Shown: positions 3,118 through 62,864 of the stretch, one piece after another
Layout of the letters: every line of letters starts with the position of its first letter
How positions within the stretch are numbered: the first letter of the stretch is position 1
Assembly: GCF_017921895.1 (NCBI RefSeq)
Contig: NZ_JAFIDN010000003.1
Span: 310,001-374,000 of the forward strand
DNA length: 64,000 bases
Reading direction: 5' to 3'
DNA from: Natronogracilivirga saccharolytica
GTDB taxonomy: Bacteria; Bacteroidota; Rhodothermia; Balneolales; Natronogracilivirgulaceae
The notes under the pieces: generated by a model
Database searches by the model: none
Seen by the model: the letters and a program-made list of their open reading frames with translations, nothing else
Told to the model about the DNA's origin: nothing
Position numbers and translations under genes: made by a program

Positions 3118-3732
3118 TTATTGTTTTTTCTCAGAAATCCTTCCGTAAACGAGATCCAGAAAATTGCCCAGAAGCTGCTCACCCGGCTGACCGGATTTTT
3201 CCGGATGAAACTGGACCCCCATAAAGTTGTCCCGCACTGCTACAGCTGCAAATGGCGCAGTGTAATGTGAAACGGCAACCGTATGACCGGTAACCGGTGC
3301 ATAATAGCTGTGCACGTGGTAAAAGTGAGTATCAGGTGCAATATTATGCATTATCGGATGGGGATTGCTGACGGTGACCTGGTTCCAGCCCATGTGAGGA
3401 ACTTTACCAAGATCAGGTTTGAATTTTATCAGCTTCCCCGGGATGATCCCGAGTGTGCGTGTCGGCCCTTCTTCCGTCTCATCGTACAGCAGCTGCATGC
3501 CGAGGCAGATTCCCAGTACCGGTTTGCGCGTCTGCTGAAGCCAGCTGTCCAGGCCGTTTTCCTGCAAATCTTTCATGGCAGAGCCTGCATGGCCCACGCC
3601 CGGAAAAATCACGGCATCCGCTTCATCAAGCACCTTTGTATTATTGGTAATGCGGTACTGAGCCTGCAGTCGCTCCATGGCATTGGAAACCGATGCCAGG
3701 TTGCCGGCCTTGTAATCGATGATGGCTATCAT
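3118..3732 (-). CDS. hisH: Imidazole glycerol phosphate synthase, glutaminase subunit
   Basis: HisH is the class I glutamine amidotransferase that feeds ammonia to HisF, which forms imidazole glycerol phosphate and AICAR. The 204-residue protein shows the nucleophile Cys76 in GICLGMQ and the His176/Glu178 pair in QFHPEKSG, a complete catalytic triad. The start ATG overlaps the hisB stop by 4 bp (ATGA), so the two are translationally coupled. It is the last gene of the hisGDCBH cluster. Its partner HisF is encoded about 48 kb away, beside hisIE, so the two subunits of one enzyme are not co-transcribed here. Confidence 0.97.
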   Translation of the reverse strand: MIAIIDYKAGNLASVSNAMERLQAQYRITNNTKVLDEADAVIFPGVGHAGSAMKDLQENGLDSWLQQTRKPVLGICLGMQLLYDETEEGPTRTLGIIPGKLIKFKPDLGKVPHMGWNQVTVSNPHPIMHNIAPDTHFYHVHSYYAPVTGHTVAVSHYTAPFAAVAVRDNFMGVQFHPEKSGQPGEQLLGNFLDLVYGRISEKKQ

Positions 3733-4706
3733 AACAGTCCTTTGGATGAAGGGAGAATATCGCGATAGTTCTCGTTGCGGTCAACCGCCTGACGAAGACT
3801 CCGGGCCAGAGCCTTGAAACAGGCTTCGATCTTATGATGATCGTTTTCACCCCGAACTGCAACGTGCAGCGTCGCCTGCAAAGCCATGGCAAGCGAATGG
3901 AAAAAATGCGAGGTCATTTCCGTCGGGAAGTCTCCCACTTTTTCGCGCCGGAACTCACCTTCAAAAACAAACCATGGCCGTCCCGACAGATCGATGGCGA
4001 CCAGAGAGCGGGTTTCATCCATGGCCGTGACAAATCCGTATCGACCGATACCTCTTTTGTCTCCCAGCGCCATGCCGATGGCTTCCCCCAGGGCGATGGC
4101 GGTGTCTTCGATGGTGTGGTGCTCGTCAATCTCCAGATCACCTTTGCAGGTAATGTCAATATCCATATAGCCATGCCGGGCAATTTGTTCCAGCATGTGA
4201 TCATAAAAGGGGAGCCCGGTGTCGATGTGCGACTCTCCCGAACCGTCCAGATTGATTTTAATCGAAATATCGGTTTCGCCGGTTTTGCGTGAATGTGAAG
4301 CGGTGCGATAACCCCCGAGCAGGTACGCAGCCAGCTGCTCCCATCCGTCGAATTCCAGTCCGCTGTAATATTCATCCGGACCGGCAGTTCCGGGGTGCGA
4401 CGGATCCTGATCTTCATTGCGTTCCGGTGTCTCCAGCAGCAGTTTCCCCTGATCGCTGACAAATACCCGTATGATTTCGCAGTTTTTCAGCAGGTCATCC
4501 TGCCGGTAGGCATTTACAAACTGGATGTTTTCCTGGTAGAGCAGCTCGGCGACGTGCTCACCAAAGTCATCCGGATTTCCGGCAGGCTGAATACCGCTGT
4601 CGAAAAGTTTTCGCAGGGCGACAATGGAACCGGACCTCATCAGAAAGCCTTCCCTGTCCGGAGCCAGTGCTTCAGAATCAATAATCAGCAGTGAGCGAAT
4701 TGCCAT
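3729..4706 (-). CDS. hisB: HisB: imidazoleglycerol-phosphate dehydratase with decayed HAD half
   Basis: A 325-residue HisB of the bifunctional layout. The C-terminal dehydratase domain (from about residue 145) is intact: DTGLPFYDHML, DEHHTIEDTA (194-203), the SHFFHSLA region and ENDHHKIEA give the manganese-binding histidines and acids that convert imidazole glycerol phosphate to imidazole acetol phosphate. The N-terminal 143 residues sit where histidinol-phosphatase should be but lack its signatures. The DxDGT nucleophile motif reads IIDSEAL (residues 8-14), and I find no TNQ motif, no Cys/His zinc loop and no GDRxTD motif. Only the end of the domain (SGLEFDGWEQLAAYLL to SRKTGETDI) still resembles E. 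coli HisB. I infer that the phosphatase activity is lost and supplied elsewhere. It is coupled to hisH by a 4 bp overlap. Confidence 0.93.
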   Translation of the reverse strand: MAIRSLLIIDSEALAPDREGFLMRSGSIVALRKLFDSGIQPAGNPDDFGEHVAELLYQENIQFVNAYRQDDLLKNCEIIRVFVSDQGKLLLETPERNEDQDPSHPGTAGPDEYYSGLEFDGWEQLAAYLLGGYRTASHSRKTGETDISIKINLDGSGESHIDTGLPFYDHMLEQIARHGYMDIDITCKGDLEIDEHHTIEDTAIALGEAIGMALGDKRGIGRYGFVTAMDETRSLVAIDLSGRPWFVFEGEFRREKVGDFPTEMTSHFFHSLAMALQATLHVAVRGENDHHKIEACFKALARSLRQAVDRNENYRDILPSSKGLL

Positions 4707-4819: not shown

Positions 4820-5905
4820 TCAGCGTTCGAGTGACCCGCGGTTGTTGAACTCCTCGATAAGCCGGTCATTCTCCGCGGGGGTGCCGACAGTAATACGCAG
4901 TGTGTTTTTACAGTGCAGCTGGTCGCCGCGATAGCGTACGATAACCCCACGTGCTGCCAGGTGATGACACCACGCTTCGGCATTCCGGAACCGCATGAGC
5001 ACAAAATTGGCATCCGAGGGGAAAACGGTTTCCAGGTCCGGGTGACCGGACAGTCCGGAGACCAGCCGCCGGCGCTCAGACAGGATTTTCTGCACATTTT
5101 CCTGCATCCGTCCGGCATGGTCGAAAGCGGCAAGCGCAGTATCGGCTGTCAGCCTGTTGACATTGTAAGGCGCTTTGACTTTCATCATCCATTCAATGAC
5201 AGCCGGATGAGCCAGTGCCGCACCCATCCGTATGGCCGCCAGACCGAAGGCCTTGGACAGTGTCTGAAGAATCACAAGATTGGGGTACTGCTCCATCAGC
5301 GGACACAGGGAGCCGTGTTCGCTGAAATCAACATAGGCTTCATCCATGACAACAAGCCCTTCAAATCCATCCAGAACCTGCCTGATCTGTTCCTGCGACA
5401 GCACATTTCCGGTGGGATTATTCGGAGAACAGAGCATGATCAGTTTGGTCTGAGGCGAGACCCGGGACAGTACCGAACGGGCATCAAGCTCAAACTCCGG
5501 AGTCAGCCCCGCCTCAACCACGGATACATTATTCACCCGCGCGGCCACCTTGTACATGCCGTATGTTGGTGGTGTAATGACTATTTCGTCGTTGCCGGGT
5601 TCACAGAACACACGCATGAGGATGTCAATCGCCTCATCACTTCCCACACCTACAAAGACCTGTTCCATTGCTATACCGCGGAATTCAGCCCATTTGCGGC
5701 GAAGATGGTCAAGCCGGGTATCGGGATAGCGGTGCAGCGGCTCTTCGGTCGGGATCGCCGGGCCGAAGCTGTTCTCGTTGGCATCAAGCAGGATTCCTTC
5801 GTGAAAATCATCCCGTGCCGCATGATAAGGGGTGAGGGTCCGGATGTTCGGTCGTACCCATGGATCGGGATTGAATTGTTCCGGTATCGGTTTCTGATCG
5901 GGCAT
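4820..5905 (-). CDS. hisC: Histidinol-phosphate aminotransferase
   Basis: This PLP-dependent class I/II aminotransferase converts imidazole acetol phosphate and glutamate to histidinol phosphate and 2-oxoglutarate. The 361-residue protein carries the fold-type I signatures: LDANENSFGP near the N-terminus, SPNNPTGN for cofactor and substrate contacts, MDEAYVDF with the PLP-nitrogen Asp, and TLSKAFGLAAIR with the Schiff-base Lys218. The C-terminal RNAEAWCHHLAARGVIVR and LRITVGTPAEN regions are typical of HisC. It stands between hisD (68 bp upstream) and hisB (113 bp downstream). The hisC-hisB gap has no hairpin with a T-run that I can see, so the cluster is probably one transcript. Confidence 0.97.
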   Translation of the reverse strand: MPDQKPIPEQFNPDPWVRPNIRTLTPYHAARDDFHEGILLDANENSFGPAIPTEEPLHRYPDTRLDHLRRKWAEFRGIAMEQVFVGVGSDEAIDILMRVFCEPGNDEIVITPPTYGMYKVAARVNNVSVVEAGLTPEFELDARSVLSRVSPQTKLIMLCSPNNPTGNVLSQEQIRQVLDGFEGLVVMDEAYVDFSEHGSLCPLMEQYPNLVILQTLSKAFGLAAIRMGAALAHPAVIEWMMKVKAPYNVNRLTADTALAAFDHAGRMQENVQKILSERRRLVSGLSGHPDLETVFPSDANFVLMRFRNAEAWCHHLAARGVIVRYRGDQLHCKNTLRITVGTPAENDRLIEEFNNRGSLER

Positions 5906-5973: not shown

Positions 5974-7290
5974 TTATGTGTCATAACTGCCTCTTGCCGG
6001 GTTGTCTGCTTTCAGCCGGATGTCCACCGCGTTTTTGTGCGCATCAAGGTGTTCCACTTCGGCCATTTTCATAACAGCCGGACCGATAGCTTCAAGTCCT
6101 TCGCGGCTAAGCTGTTGAAATGTAATGTGCTTCAGAAAACTGTCCACGGAAACGCCGCTGTACATTCTGGCATACCCGTAGGTCGGCAGGGTATGATTGG
6201 TACCGGATGCGTAGTCGCCGACACTTTCGGGTGTCCAGGGACCCAGAAACACGGAGCCGGCATGCTGAATACCGACGGTGTAGGCTTCAGGCTGATCAAC
6301 CTGCAGTATCAGATGCTCAGGTGCGTACCGGTTAACAATTTCCAGCGCCTGATCCATATTTGCTGTGGAAACGGAAAAACTGTGATTCAGTGCTTTGCGG
6401 GTGATATCAGCGCGGGGCAGTTGCTGAAGGTGCCGCTCCACAGCTTCGCGGATACGTTCAGGACCCATATCGCCGACCGTGACCAGTACCACCTGGCTGT
6501 CCTCACCGTGTTCGGCCTGCGACAGCAGATCGGTTGCTATAAAATCGGGATCGGCATTTTCATCGGCAACCACCATCACCTCGGACGGCCCTGCCGGCAG
6601 GTCCATGCTGACCATCGCCTCACTGTTCTGAAGCAGCATTTTGGCTGTCGTTACAAACTGGTTGCCCGGCCCGAACACCTTGTCCACCTTACGAATACTT
6701 TTGGTTCCCCATGCCATTGCCGCGATGGCCTGAGCTCCCCCGGCCAGATAGATCCGGGGAATGCCGGCGAGTGCCGCCGCCAGCTCAACTTCAACCGGCG
6801 GTCCGCCGTTTTTATCCGGCGGGGTGGCAATAATTTTGTAGGAACTTCCGGCCAGCGTTGCTGGAACACCCAGCATCAGCGTTGTTGATGGCAGCGGAGC
6901 AGTTCCACCGGGAATATAGAGTCCGACCGATGCAACCGGTCTTGACTCCCTCCGGCAGATGACCCCGGGCATGGTCTGCACTTCAATACTTTGCGGAATC
7001 TGAGCCTTGTGAAACTGATACAGATTATGCCAGGCAAGCTCAAAGGCTTTCCGGACATCATCATCAACGGGAATATCATCCGGTTTCCGTACGTCCCGGA
7101 GCAGCGGATCCGGGCGCACACCGTCAAATTTCTCGGTCAGCCTGAGCACGGCCTCGTCACCGTTTGTCCGCACATCATCTATAATATCCTGCACTGCCCG
7201 TGTGATATCAGCTTCATCCATGCGGGGACGCCGGCAGAGCTGCTCCAGCTTTTCTTCATCCAGTGCTTCGTAGTTCCAGTTTTTGAGCAT
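5974..7290 (-). CDS. hisD: Histidinol dehydrogenase
   Basis: HisD carries out the last two steps of histidine synthesis, oxidising histidinol to histidinal and then histidine with NAD and a zinc ion. Signatures include VGLYIPGGTAPLPSTTLML, the KVFGPGNQFV region, GPSEVMVVADE and the C-terminal NHTLPTYGYARMYSGVSV with conserved zinc and active-site residues. I place the start at the ATG at 7288-7290 (MLKNWNYEAL, 438 residues). A GGAG Shine-Dalgarno lies six bases before it, whereas the in-frame ATG four codons earlier has none. Length is normal for the family (about 430). It follows hisG by about 50 bp in the hisGDCBH cluster. Confidence 0.96.
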   Translation of the reverse strand: MLKNWNYEALDEEKLEQLCRRPRMDEADITRAVQDIIDDVRTNGDEAVLRLTEKFDGVRPDPLLRDVRKPDDIPVDDDVRKAFELAWHNLYQFHKAQIPQSIEVQTMPGVICRRESRPVASVGLYIPGGTAPLPSTTLMLGVPATLAGSSYKIIATPPDKNGGPPVEVELAAALAGIPRIYLAGGAQAIAAMAWGTKSIRKVDKVFGPGNQFVTTAKMLLQNSEAMVSMDLPAGPSEVMVVADENADPDFIATDLLSQAEHGEDSQVVLVTVGDMGPERIREAVERHLQQLPRADITRKALNHSFSVSTANMDQALEIVNRYAPEHLILQVDQPEAYTVGIQHAGSVFLGPWTPESVGDYASGTNHTLPTYGYARMYSGVSVDSFLKHITFQQLSREGLEAIGPAVMKMAEVEHLDAHKNAVDIRLKADNPARGSYDT

Positions 7291-7342
7291 GCTGAACTCC
7301 ATACATTCATAGCTCTGACAGAATTGACACGAACGCCGCCTG

Positions 7343-8215
7343 TCAGACGATCATATTTTCAATGGGCAGGATTACAATTCCGGACGCACCGGCGCTTTTC
7401 AGCTCCTCCATCACTTCCCAGAAACGGTCGGTTGGAATTACCGAATGGATGGCAACCATATCATTCTCCGCAAGAGGAAGCACGGTCGGACTTTTCAGGG
7501 AGGGGATGATGTCACAGATACGCTCGACGGCACCGGAGGGTGCGTTCATCATTATGTAGCGGCTTTTTTCCGCCTGCTGACGGGCGCCGATCCGGCTCAG
7601 CAGCTTTTCGATAAGCTCGCTTTTGTGGGCATCAATGGGCTGATTGGTCTGAATCAGTTCGGCCTGACTGTTCAGAATCGTTTCAAGTTCAACCAGTCCG
7701 TTCGTTTTCAGGGTTCCGCCGGTAGAAACGATATCGGCAATGGCATCGGCCACGTTGAGTGTCGGAGCAATCTCCACAGCGCCGGATATTTCGATCGTTT
7801 TGATCCGGATGCCCTGTTTTTCGAAATGGTCTCTGGTAAGCACCGGATAGCTTGTGGCTATGCGGCATCCGTCAAGGTCTTTGAGCGTTTTAATTCCGTT
7901 GTTTTTTGGTACGGCAACCGATAGCCGGCATTTGCCAAATCCAAGGGCCCGCAGACCGGTGACATCGGCCTTGCTCTCGGCCGTTACATTATGTCCGACA
8001 AAACCGAGCTCGCAGATGCCGTCCTGAACATATTCCGGGATATCATCATCGCGGATCAGCAGCAGTTCCACATCGTAATTGCGGCAGGGGACCAGTATGC
8101 GGTTTTTATAATTGTCGAACTCAAGCCCGATATTCTCAAGCAGATTGAGTGTTTTCTCGGAAAGCCGCCCACCTTTTTGAATGGCAATCCTGAGTGAAGA
8201 ATTGTTGTTCACCAA
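7343..8215 (-). CDS. hisG: ATP phosphoribosyltransferase, long form
   Basis: HisG joins ATP and PRPP, the first and feedback-controlled step of histidine synthesis. At 290 residues it is the long form, with a C-terminal ACT-like regulatory domain (roughly residues 215-290, ending in SGIVILPIENMIV) and no need for HisZ. N-terminal LRIAIQKGGRLSEKTLNLL and the phosphate-binding stretch DIVSTGGTLKTNGLVEL are clear. It is the promoter-proximal gene of the hisGDCBH cluster and is divergent from lepA. The 170 bp between them should hold both promoters. I see no T-box, attenuator or other leader in that space. Confidence 0.97.
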   Translation of the reverse strand: MVNNNSSLRIAIQKGGRLSEKTLNLLENIGLEFDNYKNRILVPCRNYDVELLLIRDDDIPEYVQDGICELGFVGHNVTAESKADVTGLRALGFGKCRLSVAVPKNNGIKTLKDLDGCRIATSYPVLTRDHFEKQGIRIKTIEISGAVEIAPTLNVADAIADIVSTGGTLKTNGLVELETILNSQAELIQTNQPIDAHKSELIEKLLSRIGARQQAEKSRYIMMNAPSGAVERICDIIPSLKSPTVLPLAENDMVAIHSVIPTDRFWEVMEELKSAGASGIVILPIENMIV

Positions 8216-50799: not shown

Positions 50800-51408
50800 C
50801 TACTTCTTGTGGCGCGTTTCAAGTTCGGATACAAGGTCTTGGAGCGTCATGTCTTCACTTGAGAGCAGCATCATCAGATGGAAAAGCAGGTCGGATGCCT
50901 CGTAGGTGAACTCTTCACGTGAGTTTTTTACGGCAATGACGGTTTCCACCGCCTCTTCGCCCACTTTCTGGGCAAGTTTGTCACGGCCGGCACGGAACAT
51001 CTTGCTGGTATATGATCCCTCGGGCAGCTGCTCTTTGCGCTCATACAGCAGCTCTTCCAGTTCTTTCAGAAAGGCCAGATCATTGCTGTAAGGTTTCTGA
51101 TGAAAACAGGATGTTTCGCCCGTGTGGCAGGTAGGTCCGGCCGGTATGGCTTCAACCAGCAGTGCATCTTTATCGCAGTCTTCCTGGATTTCCACCAAGT
51201 GCAGCACATTGCCTGATTCTTCTCCTTTCATCCAGAGCCTTTGTCTGGATCGGCTGTAAAAGGTTACTTTTTTCGTATCCAGTGTTTTCTGAACAGCGTC
51301 CCGGTCCATATACCCCAGCATGAGGACCTGTTTGGTTCGGCTGTCCTGAATAACCGCCGGTATCAATCCGTCAGAGGATGAAAAATCAAGCTTGTCAACT
51401 GCGATCAT
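50800..51408 (-). CDS. hisIE: Bifunctional PR-AMP cyclohydrolase / PR-ATP pyrophosphatase
   Basis: This 202-residue protein carries out the second and third steps of histidine synthesis. The N-terminal HisI part (1-110) has LMLGYMDRDAVQKTL, TFYSRSRQRLWMKGE and the zinc-binding EDCDKD ... PTCHTGETSCF. The C-terminal HisE part (about 112-200) has the acidic pyrophosphatase motif KVGEEAVETVIAVKN and DLLFHLMMLL. It lies 26 bp after hisF on the minus strand. Both are far from the hisGDCBH cluster, about 43 kb away. Confidence 0.96.
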   Translation of the reverse strand: MIAVDKLDFSSSDGLIPAVIQDSRTKQVLMLGYMDRDAVQKTLDTKKVTFYSRSRQRLWMKGEESGNVLHLVEIQEDCDKDALLVEAIPAGPTCHTGETSCFHQKPYSNDLAFLKELEELLYERKEQLPEGSYTSKMFRAGRDKLAQKVGEEAVETVIAVKNSREEFTYEASDLLFHLMMLLSSEDMTLQDLVSELETRHKK

Positions 51409-51434: not shown

Positions 51435-52190
51435 TTACAGCCTGACGGGGATGCCGCTGTCATGCATCACCCGTTTCAGATCCGAAATTTCGATTTCACG
51501 GAAGTGGAAAATACTGGCAGCAAGTACGGCATCGGCCTGCCCTACTGTAACAGCATCGATACAATGCTCCACCGTTCCCGCTCCGCCGCTGGCTATCAGC
51601 GGAATGGAAACGGTCGATGATATTTTCGAGAGCAACGTATTGTCAAAACCGATTTTCGTTCCGTCGCGGTCCATGCTGGTCAGCAGAATCTCACCGGCGC
51701 CGCGCCGGGCCACCTCTTCGCACCAGTCAACGGCATCAAGGCCGGTATCTTTTTGTCCGGCATTAATATATACATTCCAGGAGCTGCCTTTGGACTTGGC
51801 ATCCACCGCCGCAACAATACACTGCGACCCGAAACGGTCGGCGGCTTCGGTAATCAGTCCGGGATTGCGCACGATGCTGCTGTTCAGGGATACTTTGTCA
51901 GCACCAGCGTGAAGCAGTGCCGCTATTTCATCAGTGCTGCGTATTCCGCCTCCCACTGTAAAGGGAATCCGGATATGACGGGCGATGTCCTGAACCAGGG
52001 GCACAAGTGTTTTACGTTTTTCATTGGTGGCGGTGATGTCGAGAAAGACAAGCTCATCGGCTCCTTCTTCAGAGTAGCGTCCGGCCAGTTCAACCGGATC
52101 ACCGGCATCTATGAGCCCGACAAAATTTACACCTTTGACCGTCCGGCCGTTTTTTATATCAAGACAGGGAATGATTCGTTTTGCCAGCAA
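51435..52190 (-). CDS. hisF: Imidazole glycerol phosphate synthase, cyclase subunit
   Basis: HisF forms imidazole glycerol phosphate and AICAR from PRFAR and ammonia supplied by HisH. The 251-residue TIM barrel has [17 protein letters not shown] with catalytic Asp9, [10 protein letters not shown] with the second Asp near 130, and the phosphate sites [16 protein letters not shown] and [16 protein letters not shown]. It precedes hisIE by 26 bp. Its glutaminase partner hisH is in the other cluster. It is divergent from a lipoprotein gene; the roughly 105 bp between them should hold both promoters. Confidence 0.97.
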
Positions 52191-54437: not shown

Positions 54438-55163
54438 TTACGCATCTTCATGAAAGGAGAGCATCTCTTCAAGGGAGATTTTTCCTTCATAGTAGGCGCG
54501 TCCTATCACGACACCATAAAGTCCTTCAATGGCAAGCTGTCGCAGGTCTTCTGTACTTGCAACGCCGCCTGATGCAATAGTGTTTACCATCGGATATCGC
54601 TGCGCTATTTCGTTGTAAAGTCCCGAGTTTACACCGGTAAGCATACCGTCCCGTGAAATATCGGTGCACAGAATGGTTTTTACTCCGACACGCACCATGC
54701 TGCCGAGGAAATCCATCGCATCTTCATCGGAAATGCGCTCCCATCCGCCATAGGCCATTTTGCCGTCCTTGATATCAAGGCCAAGGATGCATGTGTCCCC
54801 GCCATAGATATCCAGCGAGGCAATCCATTCATCCGGACGCTGAACGGCCATGGAGCTGCTGACTATACGGGATACGCCGACATCCATCAACGTCTGGATG
54901 TCTCCCCGGCTGCGGATACCTCCGCCAAACTGAACACTCACACCGGTTTTTTCAATAATATTTTCAATGACCGGCAAATTCATGAAACGGCCTTCGCGTG
55001 CCCCGTTGAGATCAACAACATGTATATGCGTGAAACCCGCTTCGCGAAATTTCTTGACAAAGGAGGCCGGATTATCAGAATAAACCGTAACCTCTTCGTA
55101 GTCGCCTTTTTTAAGCCGGACAACCTGCCCGTTAAGCAAATCGATAGCTGGAATAACTTGCAT
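54438..55163 (-). CDS. hisA: ProFAR isomerase
   Basis: HisA isomerises ProFAR to PRFAR, the step before HisHF. The 241-residue TIM barrel has the catalytic Asp in VIPAIDLLNGQVVRLKKGDY, phosphate sites VQFGGGIRSRGDIQTL and IASGGVASTEDLRQL, and the second Asp in TDISRDGMLTGVN. It is alone on its strand, with about 220 bp upstream to lgt. It is separated from hisF by two genes on the opposite strand, so it must have its own promoter. Confidence 0.97.
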   Translation of the reverse strand: MQVIPAIDLLNGQVVRLKKGDYEEVTVYSDNPASFVKKFREAGFTHIHVVDLNGAREGRFMNLPVIENIIEKTGVSVQFGGGIRSRGDIQTLMDVGVSRIVSSSMAVQRPDEWIASLDIYGGDTCILGLDIKDGKMAYGGWERISDEDAMDFLGSMVRVGVKTILCTDISRDGMLTGVNSGLYNEIAQRYPMVNTIASGGVASTEDLRQLAIEGLYGVVIGRAYYEGKISLEEMLSFHEDA

Positions 55164-62060: not shown

Positions 62061-62864
62061 ATGGTACGATATTTTATTCTCGACATAGACGGATGCGTAA
62101 CCATTCCGTTTCAAAGCCCCGACTGGACTGCCATCACACGAATTCGTGACCTGCAGCAGCAAAGCAAGTACGATGAACATGTCCCTGCGCTGAGTCTGTG
62201 TACCGGGCGGCCGTTGCCCTATACCGAAGCAGTGGCCCAGTGGCTCGGCATTCGCAATACTATCATCTTTGAAAGCGGAGGCGGATTCTACCATCCGATT
62301 ACCAATGAGCTTACCTGGTCACCTCACTTCAGCGATGAGATCCGCCGGAAGTCCCTGGAACTGCGTAAATGGTTTCAGGATGATGTGCTGTCCCGGTTTC
62401 CCGGAGTGATGCTGGAATTCGCCAAGAAGACGGATGTCGGTATGGTGCACACAGACATCAATGAAATCAGGAAGGTGTATGACATCGCAGTGGAAAAAAT
62501 CGCGGATGGGTATCCCGAATTCGAAGCACATTACACTGAAGTTTCGGTGAACATTATCGTTAAAGCGTGTAACAAAGCCTCGGGGTTGCAGTTTTTTGCA
62601 GATGAACACGGCGTCACGGCCGATGAGATTGCTTACATCGGAGATTCTTCAGGGGATACCATGGCACTGGAATGGGCTGGAGCACCCTACGCACCGGCTA
62701 ATGCAATCGAAGAAGTCCGGAAACGGGCCGATGTGATGAACGGTAAAGCGACCCGGGGTGTGTTGGAGGCCTATCAACAGATCATCGCCCGCAATATGAA
62801 GAACATGTCCGGAAACAATGTCCCCGCTCAGCACAAGCAGAACACTGCCAGTGAGGATCAGTAA
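62061..62864 (+). CDS. HAD-superfamily phosphatase (Cof/IIB type)
   Basis: A 267-residue phosphatase of HAD subfamily IIB. Nucleophile motif DIDGC (Asp8, Asp10) has Cys in place of the usual Thr. Motif II is CTGRPLPYTEA, the Lys lies in IVKACNKASGLQF, and motif IV is YIGDSSGDTMAL. Cap type C2 fits sugar-phosphate or phosphoglycolate phosphatases. The substrate is not determined. It is tempting but unsupported to see it as the missing histidinol-phosphatase. The 267 bp before it holds nothing I can identify. It is convergent with the last gene. Confidence 0.88.
   Translation: MVRYFILDIDGCVTIPFQSPDWTAITRIRDLQQQSKYDEHVPALSLCTGRPLPYTEAVAQWLGIRNTIIFESGGGFYHPITNELTWSPHFSDEIRRKSLELRKWFQDDVLSRFPGVMLEFAKKTDVGMVHTDINEIRKVYDIAVEKIADGYPEFEAHYTEVSVNIIVKACNKASGLQFFADEHGVTADEIAYIGDSSGDTMALEWAGAPYAPANAIEEVRKRADVMNGKATRGVLEAYQQIIARNMKNMSGNNVPAQHKQNTASEDQ

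Follow-up and report, generated by a model that had tools for sequence, protein, structure and literature searches.

Does a histidine pathway whose HisB protein has apparently lost its phosphatase half have another enzyme for the missing step, and, if so, why is the disabled half still attached? The question is raised by a 64,000-nt window (the whole stretch of DNA analysed) of Natronogracilivirga saccharolytica, NZ_JAFIDN010000003.1, positions 310,001-374,000 of the forward strand. Its HisB ends in an intact IGPD half (a PF00475 match at residues 163-304, E 2.3e-61, 206.5 bits, above cut-off) with the metal-binding DEHHT motif. A sequence-only reading had taken the N-terminal 143 residues to hold the place of histidinol phosphatase; the coordinates fit, the remnant proper covering approximately residues 1-134. 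It had also placed the remaining histidine enzymes in the window, where hisG, hisD, hisC, hisH, hisIE, hisF and hisA are indeed recognised, all on the minus strand and named from their translated sequences. Its further statement that only the histidinol-phosphatase step is unaccounted for is correct only as far as the window goes: the genome as a whole encodes a candidate, HisN, on another contig. The features referred to below are:

3729-4706, minus strand: hisB, an ORF of 325 aa
3729-4304, minus strand: intact IGPD half of HisB, stop codon included (PF00475)
4305-4706, minus strand: degenerate HAD (histidinol-phosphatase) remnant, HisB residues 1-134 (hhalign against intact HisB-N, AlphaFold2, dN/dS)
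4665-4682, minus strand: vestige of HAD motif I, IDSEAL replacing LDRDGT (alignment with intact HisB-N)
4530-4532, minus strand: Glu59, in an LLxQExI helix; no other residue is invariant across the 49 remnants
4341-4343, minus strand: Trp122, about 90% conserved, the counterpart of an invariant Trp of intact HisB-N
3118-3732, minus strand: hisH (ORF and sequence)
4820-5905, minus strand: hisC (ORF and sequence)
5974-7302, minus strand: hisD (ORF and sequence)
7343-8215, minus strand: hisG (ORF and sequence)
50800-51408, minus strand: hisIE (ORF and sequence)
51435-52190, minus strand: hisF (ORF and sequence)
54438-55163, minus strand: hisA (ORF and sequence)
Contig 4, 212411-213184 (G000:C4:212411-213184): hisN (L098), IMPase-type (TIGR02067 and HisN motifs)

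Alignment with intact HisB shows that, at the level of its sequence, the N-terminal half has lost the HAD catalytic motifs. Motif I reads I9-D10-S11-E12-A13-L14 against L-D-R-D-G-T of intact HisB. Neither TNQ nor zinc-loop/RKP nor GDRxTD is present in the window's HisB, and all three are effectively absent across an alignment of 49 remnants, in which the DxDGT motif is broken and the nucleophile column holds Asp in only 12 of the 49. Residues 1-143 draw no Pfam or NCBIfam match up to E = 1, and TIGR01261, the model of the HAD-type HisB-N, has no match over its cut-off in the window's genome (G000). An assembly or frame error is excluded, since approximately 50 HisB proteins of related genomes have this degenerate N-half as an open, in-frame sequence. 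In all these respects (DxDGT lost; TNQ, zinc-loop and GDRxTD missing; a tail that can still be aligned with HisB, with W122 pairing with the invariant Trp) the alignment bears out what had been read from the letters.

Almost certainly, this is the short N-terminal HisB domain that Del Duca et al. (2021; PMC8305728) described in all four Balneolota that they studied and in Melioribacter roseus. They found no BLASTp similarity to the HAD half and called the function unclear; their survey searched for HAD, GmhB and PHP phosphatases, IMPases not being among them. The BLASTp result, together with the lack of a Pfam or NCBIfam family match to the remnant, could be taken to mean that a new and unrelated domain has replaced the HAD half. 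We regard that as highly improbable: when the 49 remnants are set against 11 intact HAD halves, hhalign yields a score of 37.0, far above 200 column shuffles (mean 11.7, SD 2.3, maximum 18.7), and a global profile-profile alignment (probability 91.6%) pairs strand 1, helix A, strand 2, the next helix and the C-terminal Trp helix, helices and strands being in register and the tail Trp common to the remnant and intact HisB. Arg134 of the remnant, too, is more than 90% conserved among the 49. The profile comparisons show the N-terminal half to be a descendant of the HAD histidinol-phosphatase half of HisB. Like the bifunctional HisB of E. coli and Bacteroidota, the window's protein occupies the hisC-hisH gene position and has an intact IGPD half, joined to a homologous N-half in which the order of elements is kept; unlike it, the N-half is shorter, the catalytic motifs are all lost and the phosphatase function appears to have shifted to HisN.

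That another phosphatase must act had already been argued from the window, and a search of the genome for PHP- and IMPase-type phosphatases bears the argument out, pointing to the IMPase-type HisN on contig 4 and yielding no HisJ over cut-off. The genome encodes three IMPase-family proteins. One of them, L098, scores 267.1 bits against TIGR02067, the HisN model, with the next-best model at 126; the NCBI cut-off of 275.15, which is passed in 69 of the 245 genomes of the class, lies slightly higher. L098 carries all six of the HisN motifs of PMC5516325, including the diagnostic motif 5 (RxxGDxxxH) as RTWGDAYGH, and has Leu at position 91, where Lys is merely preferred in HisN. The pattern R[TS][WY]GDAYGH occurs in every one of the 33 HisNs that were examined, some genomes contributing two, and the HisN motifs are also found in the HisNs of about 28 more genomes of the order Balneolales. 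The best solved relative of L098 is the histidinol phosphatase of M. tuberculosis (5yht, 131 bits). In its six motifs, best PDB match and best NCBIfam model, L098 is thus like the IMPase-type HisN of C. glutamicum, M. tuberculosis, Z. mobilis and plants (PMC5516325), and it is unlike known HisN in scoring slightly below the NCBIfam cut-off. Its gene lies outside the his cluster, beside an M1 peptidase gene; a large gene read as M1 peptidase adjoins hisN or is close to it in six of six neighbourhoods examined (families f1 to f4), which suggests vertical descent of hisN.

The other families of histidinol phosphatase give little. There is no HAD-type enzyme elsewhere in the genome (a single match, E 0.004, 18 bits), and none of the 245 class genomes has a PHP-type HisJ (TIGR01856) over cut-off; the best TIGR01856 matches in the class lie for the most part in frames of ~600 aa, as would fit PolX. 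In the window's genome the PHP-type matches proved to be DnaE-like, PolX-like and RNase AM/TrpH-like proteins, and a HAD protein at 62061-62864 of the window is of the HAD-IIB (Cof/phosphoglycolate-phosphatase-like) type, not HisB-N.

We therefore weighed two other assignments of the histidinol-phosphatase step. One is that L098 is not the histidinol phosphatase here and that the step falls to the SuhB-like IMPase or to a different HAD protein. The sub-cut-off TIGR02067 score and the existence of such proteins (the one at 62061-62864, for example) speak for it; what makes it very unlikely is that HisN motifs 4 and 5 are confined to L098 among the genome's IMPases, that the SuhB-like L097 has an RRPGSA motif, and that HisN and the intact HAD half exclude each other across the order, as described below. 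The second, that the remnant has kept histidinol-phosphatase activity through a different chemistry, might appeal to Asp10, which the window's protein has kept, and to PMC8305728, which left the question open. It is scarcely credible in view of the scatter at the nucleophile column already noted, the deletion of the metal and leaving-group motifs, the finding of no other conserved set of Asp, His, Cys or Lys across the 49 remnants, and a step that HisN would account for. We identify L098, on motif and model evidence and with high confidence, as the putative replacement histidinol phosphatase; it would be expected to dephosphorylate histidinol phosphate in vivo.

The distribution of the two enzymes argues in the same direction. 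A scan of contigs brought up Balneolales and related ones in which HisB has a comparable degenerate N-half, and HisB was found in 226 of 245 genomes in a class-wide search. Approximately 60 loci were read in the order and neighbouring families, and the remnant is mostly 95-135 residues long; some members of the family to which the window belongs have inserts in it. (In genus g4 of that family the inserts in the remnants of L117, L122 and L127 are of low complexity, L127 for example having a long GQ repeat.) Searched against 296 genomes of the phylum, the profile of the 49 remnants matches only Balneolales and two genomes of another family, G284 and G354. Among Balneolales genomes of at least 90% completeness, counted by hand, 82 of 85 have HisN (E 1e-73 or better). 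Two of the three without it, G053 and G106, have an intact fused HAD half; the third, G096, has no HisB match. (G096 is 96% complete, and neither HisB nor HisN is matched well in it; it is possibly a histidine auxotroph.) Within the order the model of the intact HAD half is matched over cut-off only in G053, G106 and G107, whose HisB has LDRDGT, TNQ or SNQ, RKPGTG and GDRxxD (that of G106 being seen through its match only) and whose best HisN-model matches are far weaker, at E 1e-51 to 1e-54. These matches show the predicted HisN and the intact HAD half to be mutually exclusive across the order. The HisB of G053 groups among Bacteroidota, and an AU test rejects a shared origin of it and the HisB of the order (p 0.001), so that it was probably acquired horizontally, in what looks like a replacement.

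In a quick tree of 87 rows the remnants of the order come out as a single clade (SH-aLRT 93); a more careful tree of 53 rows puts gammaproteobacterial rows among them, though a single clade is not rejected by the AU test (p 0.42). Two lineages within the order have dispensed with the remnant. In G114 (L197), whose genome has HisN, it is cleanly gone and the IGPD follows directly after hisC; in genus g28 (G104, L149; G101, L150) HisC and HisB are fused, and a low-complexity linker occupies the remnant's place.

Is the remnant, then, anything but debris? Over eight close pairs of relatives its dN/dS is 0.355 (0.291-0.433), against 0.059 (0.044-0.076) for the IGPD in the same pairs, whereas in intact HisBs the HAD-half value is about 1-2 times that of the IGPD; constraint has thus been relaxed but is not gone, and the estimates show weak purifying selection on the remnant. 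AlphaFold2 models the remnant as a beta-alpha-beta layout with pLDDT 83.7 and pTM 0.77, so that it is predicted to fold, with no sign of intact catalytic residues in the alignment. Foldseek gives no significant match of the model to the PDB (best E 0.06), the weak matches including several HAD phosphatases such as GmhB, and the evidence from fold is accordingly just supportive; a profile sequence search of the PDB with the remnant also returns only weak matches (best E 0.14). The suggestion that the remnant might have another role is thus favoured in part, by selection and by the predicted fold, the role itself being a matter of surmise: our best guess is that it would be structural.

The remnant may instead be a functionless relic that persists because its clean removal would need a new start site before the IGPD. 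Its rate of evolution is about six times that of the IGPD, its length is very variable (with the low-complexity inserts of the window's own family) and it has been cleanly lost in G114 and g28. We think this unlikely, while according it some weight: the upper bound of its dN/dS, 0.43, is well under 1, a single length class prevails over most of the order, the predicted fold is confident and Glu59 is invariant.

Degeneration of the HAD half is not confined to the order. The degenerate HisB halves of G168 and G171 (family f11) and of G284 and G354 (f27) lie elsewhere in the IGPD tree, and an AU test rejects grouping them with the order (p 0.005 and 0.009), which makes at least three separate degenerations likely, subject to the tree being that of a single domain. 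In G284 and G354, an independent lineage, the remnant is paired with HisN (E 2e-87 and 2e-85). (Their loci, L244:451-1350 and L243:449-1348, respectively, represent a lineage outside the class that lies near Ignavibacteria in the IGPD tree.) G168 and G171 (L166, L169) belong to a different family within the class. Their HisB carries a longer degenerate HAD half, and no HisN, HisJ or intact HAD histidinol phosphatase was found in them, their IMPases being only SuhB-like and nucleotidase-like; loss of the HAD half is therefore not always accompanied by HisN. If the remnant were a repurposed pseudophosphatase domain with a positive role of its own (organising the IGPD oligomer, for instance, or sensing histidinol phosphate, or docking HisN to HisB), that role would account for the way in which reduction halts at one shared core in separate lineages; we hold this to be a long shot.

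Other arrangements of the IGPD were encountered along the way. In Bacteroidales MAGs (L020, L038, L039, L043, L048) HisC and the IGPD share a single ORF with no HAD half, and no IMPase with a HisN motif was found in the one of these that is G016 (L043). HisD and the IGPD share a single ORF at L171-L175, in several families of the class. Family f8 (L222, L223; G149, G152) has a stand-alone IGPD of ~200 aa; no HisN or HisJ over cut-off and no HAD histidinol phosphatase was found in these two genomes, and their divergent IMPases are without the HisN motif.

The history that we propose would start from an ancestral HisB that was a bifunctional fusion of HAD phosphatase and IGPD. An IMPase-type HisN, presumably present before the decay began, would have rendered the HAD half redundant; the latter would then have lost its nucleophile, TNQ loop, zinc/RKP loop and GDRxTD motif and shrunk to a Rossmann-like core of ~95-135 residues on an intact IGPD, to be kept, we infer, on structural grounds (folding or solubility, for example, or the packing of IGPD subunits). 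Taken as a whole, this account of a bifunctional ancestor, takeover by HisN and decay of the HAD half to a fused remnant is very probably correct.

What PMC8305728 had left aside, and what is found here, is the HAD ancestry of the domain and its putative IMPase-type replacement. Part of the text of PMC5516325 records HisN in Chlorobi and some Chitinophagaceae, Balneolota not being mentioned there, and a literature search found no further paper connecting Balneolota with histidinol phosphatase. The ancestry of the remnant, the replacement enzyme, the selection on the remnant and the recurrence of its degeneration are new. The gap in the histidine pathway of Balneolota that was left in 2021 would thereby be filled, in a form that can now be tested directly, and HisB proteins that bear the remnant should not be annotated as bifunctional HisB. 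They present a clean natural example of takeover between enzyme families, in which the dead domain is still attached, is kept by selection and has probably arisen more than once.
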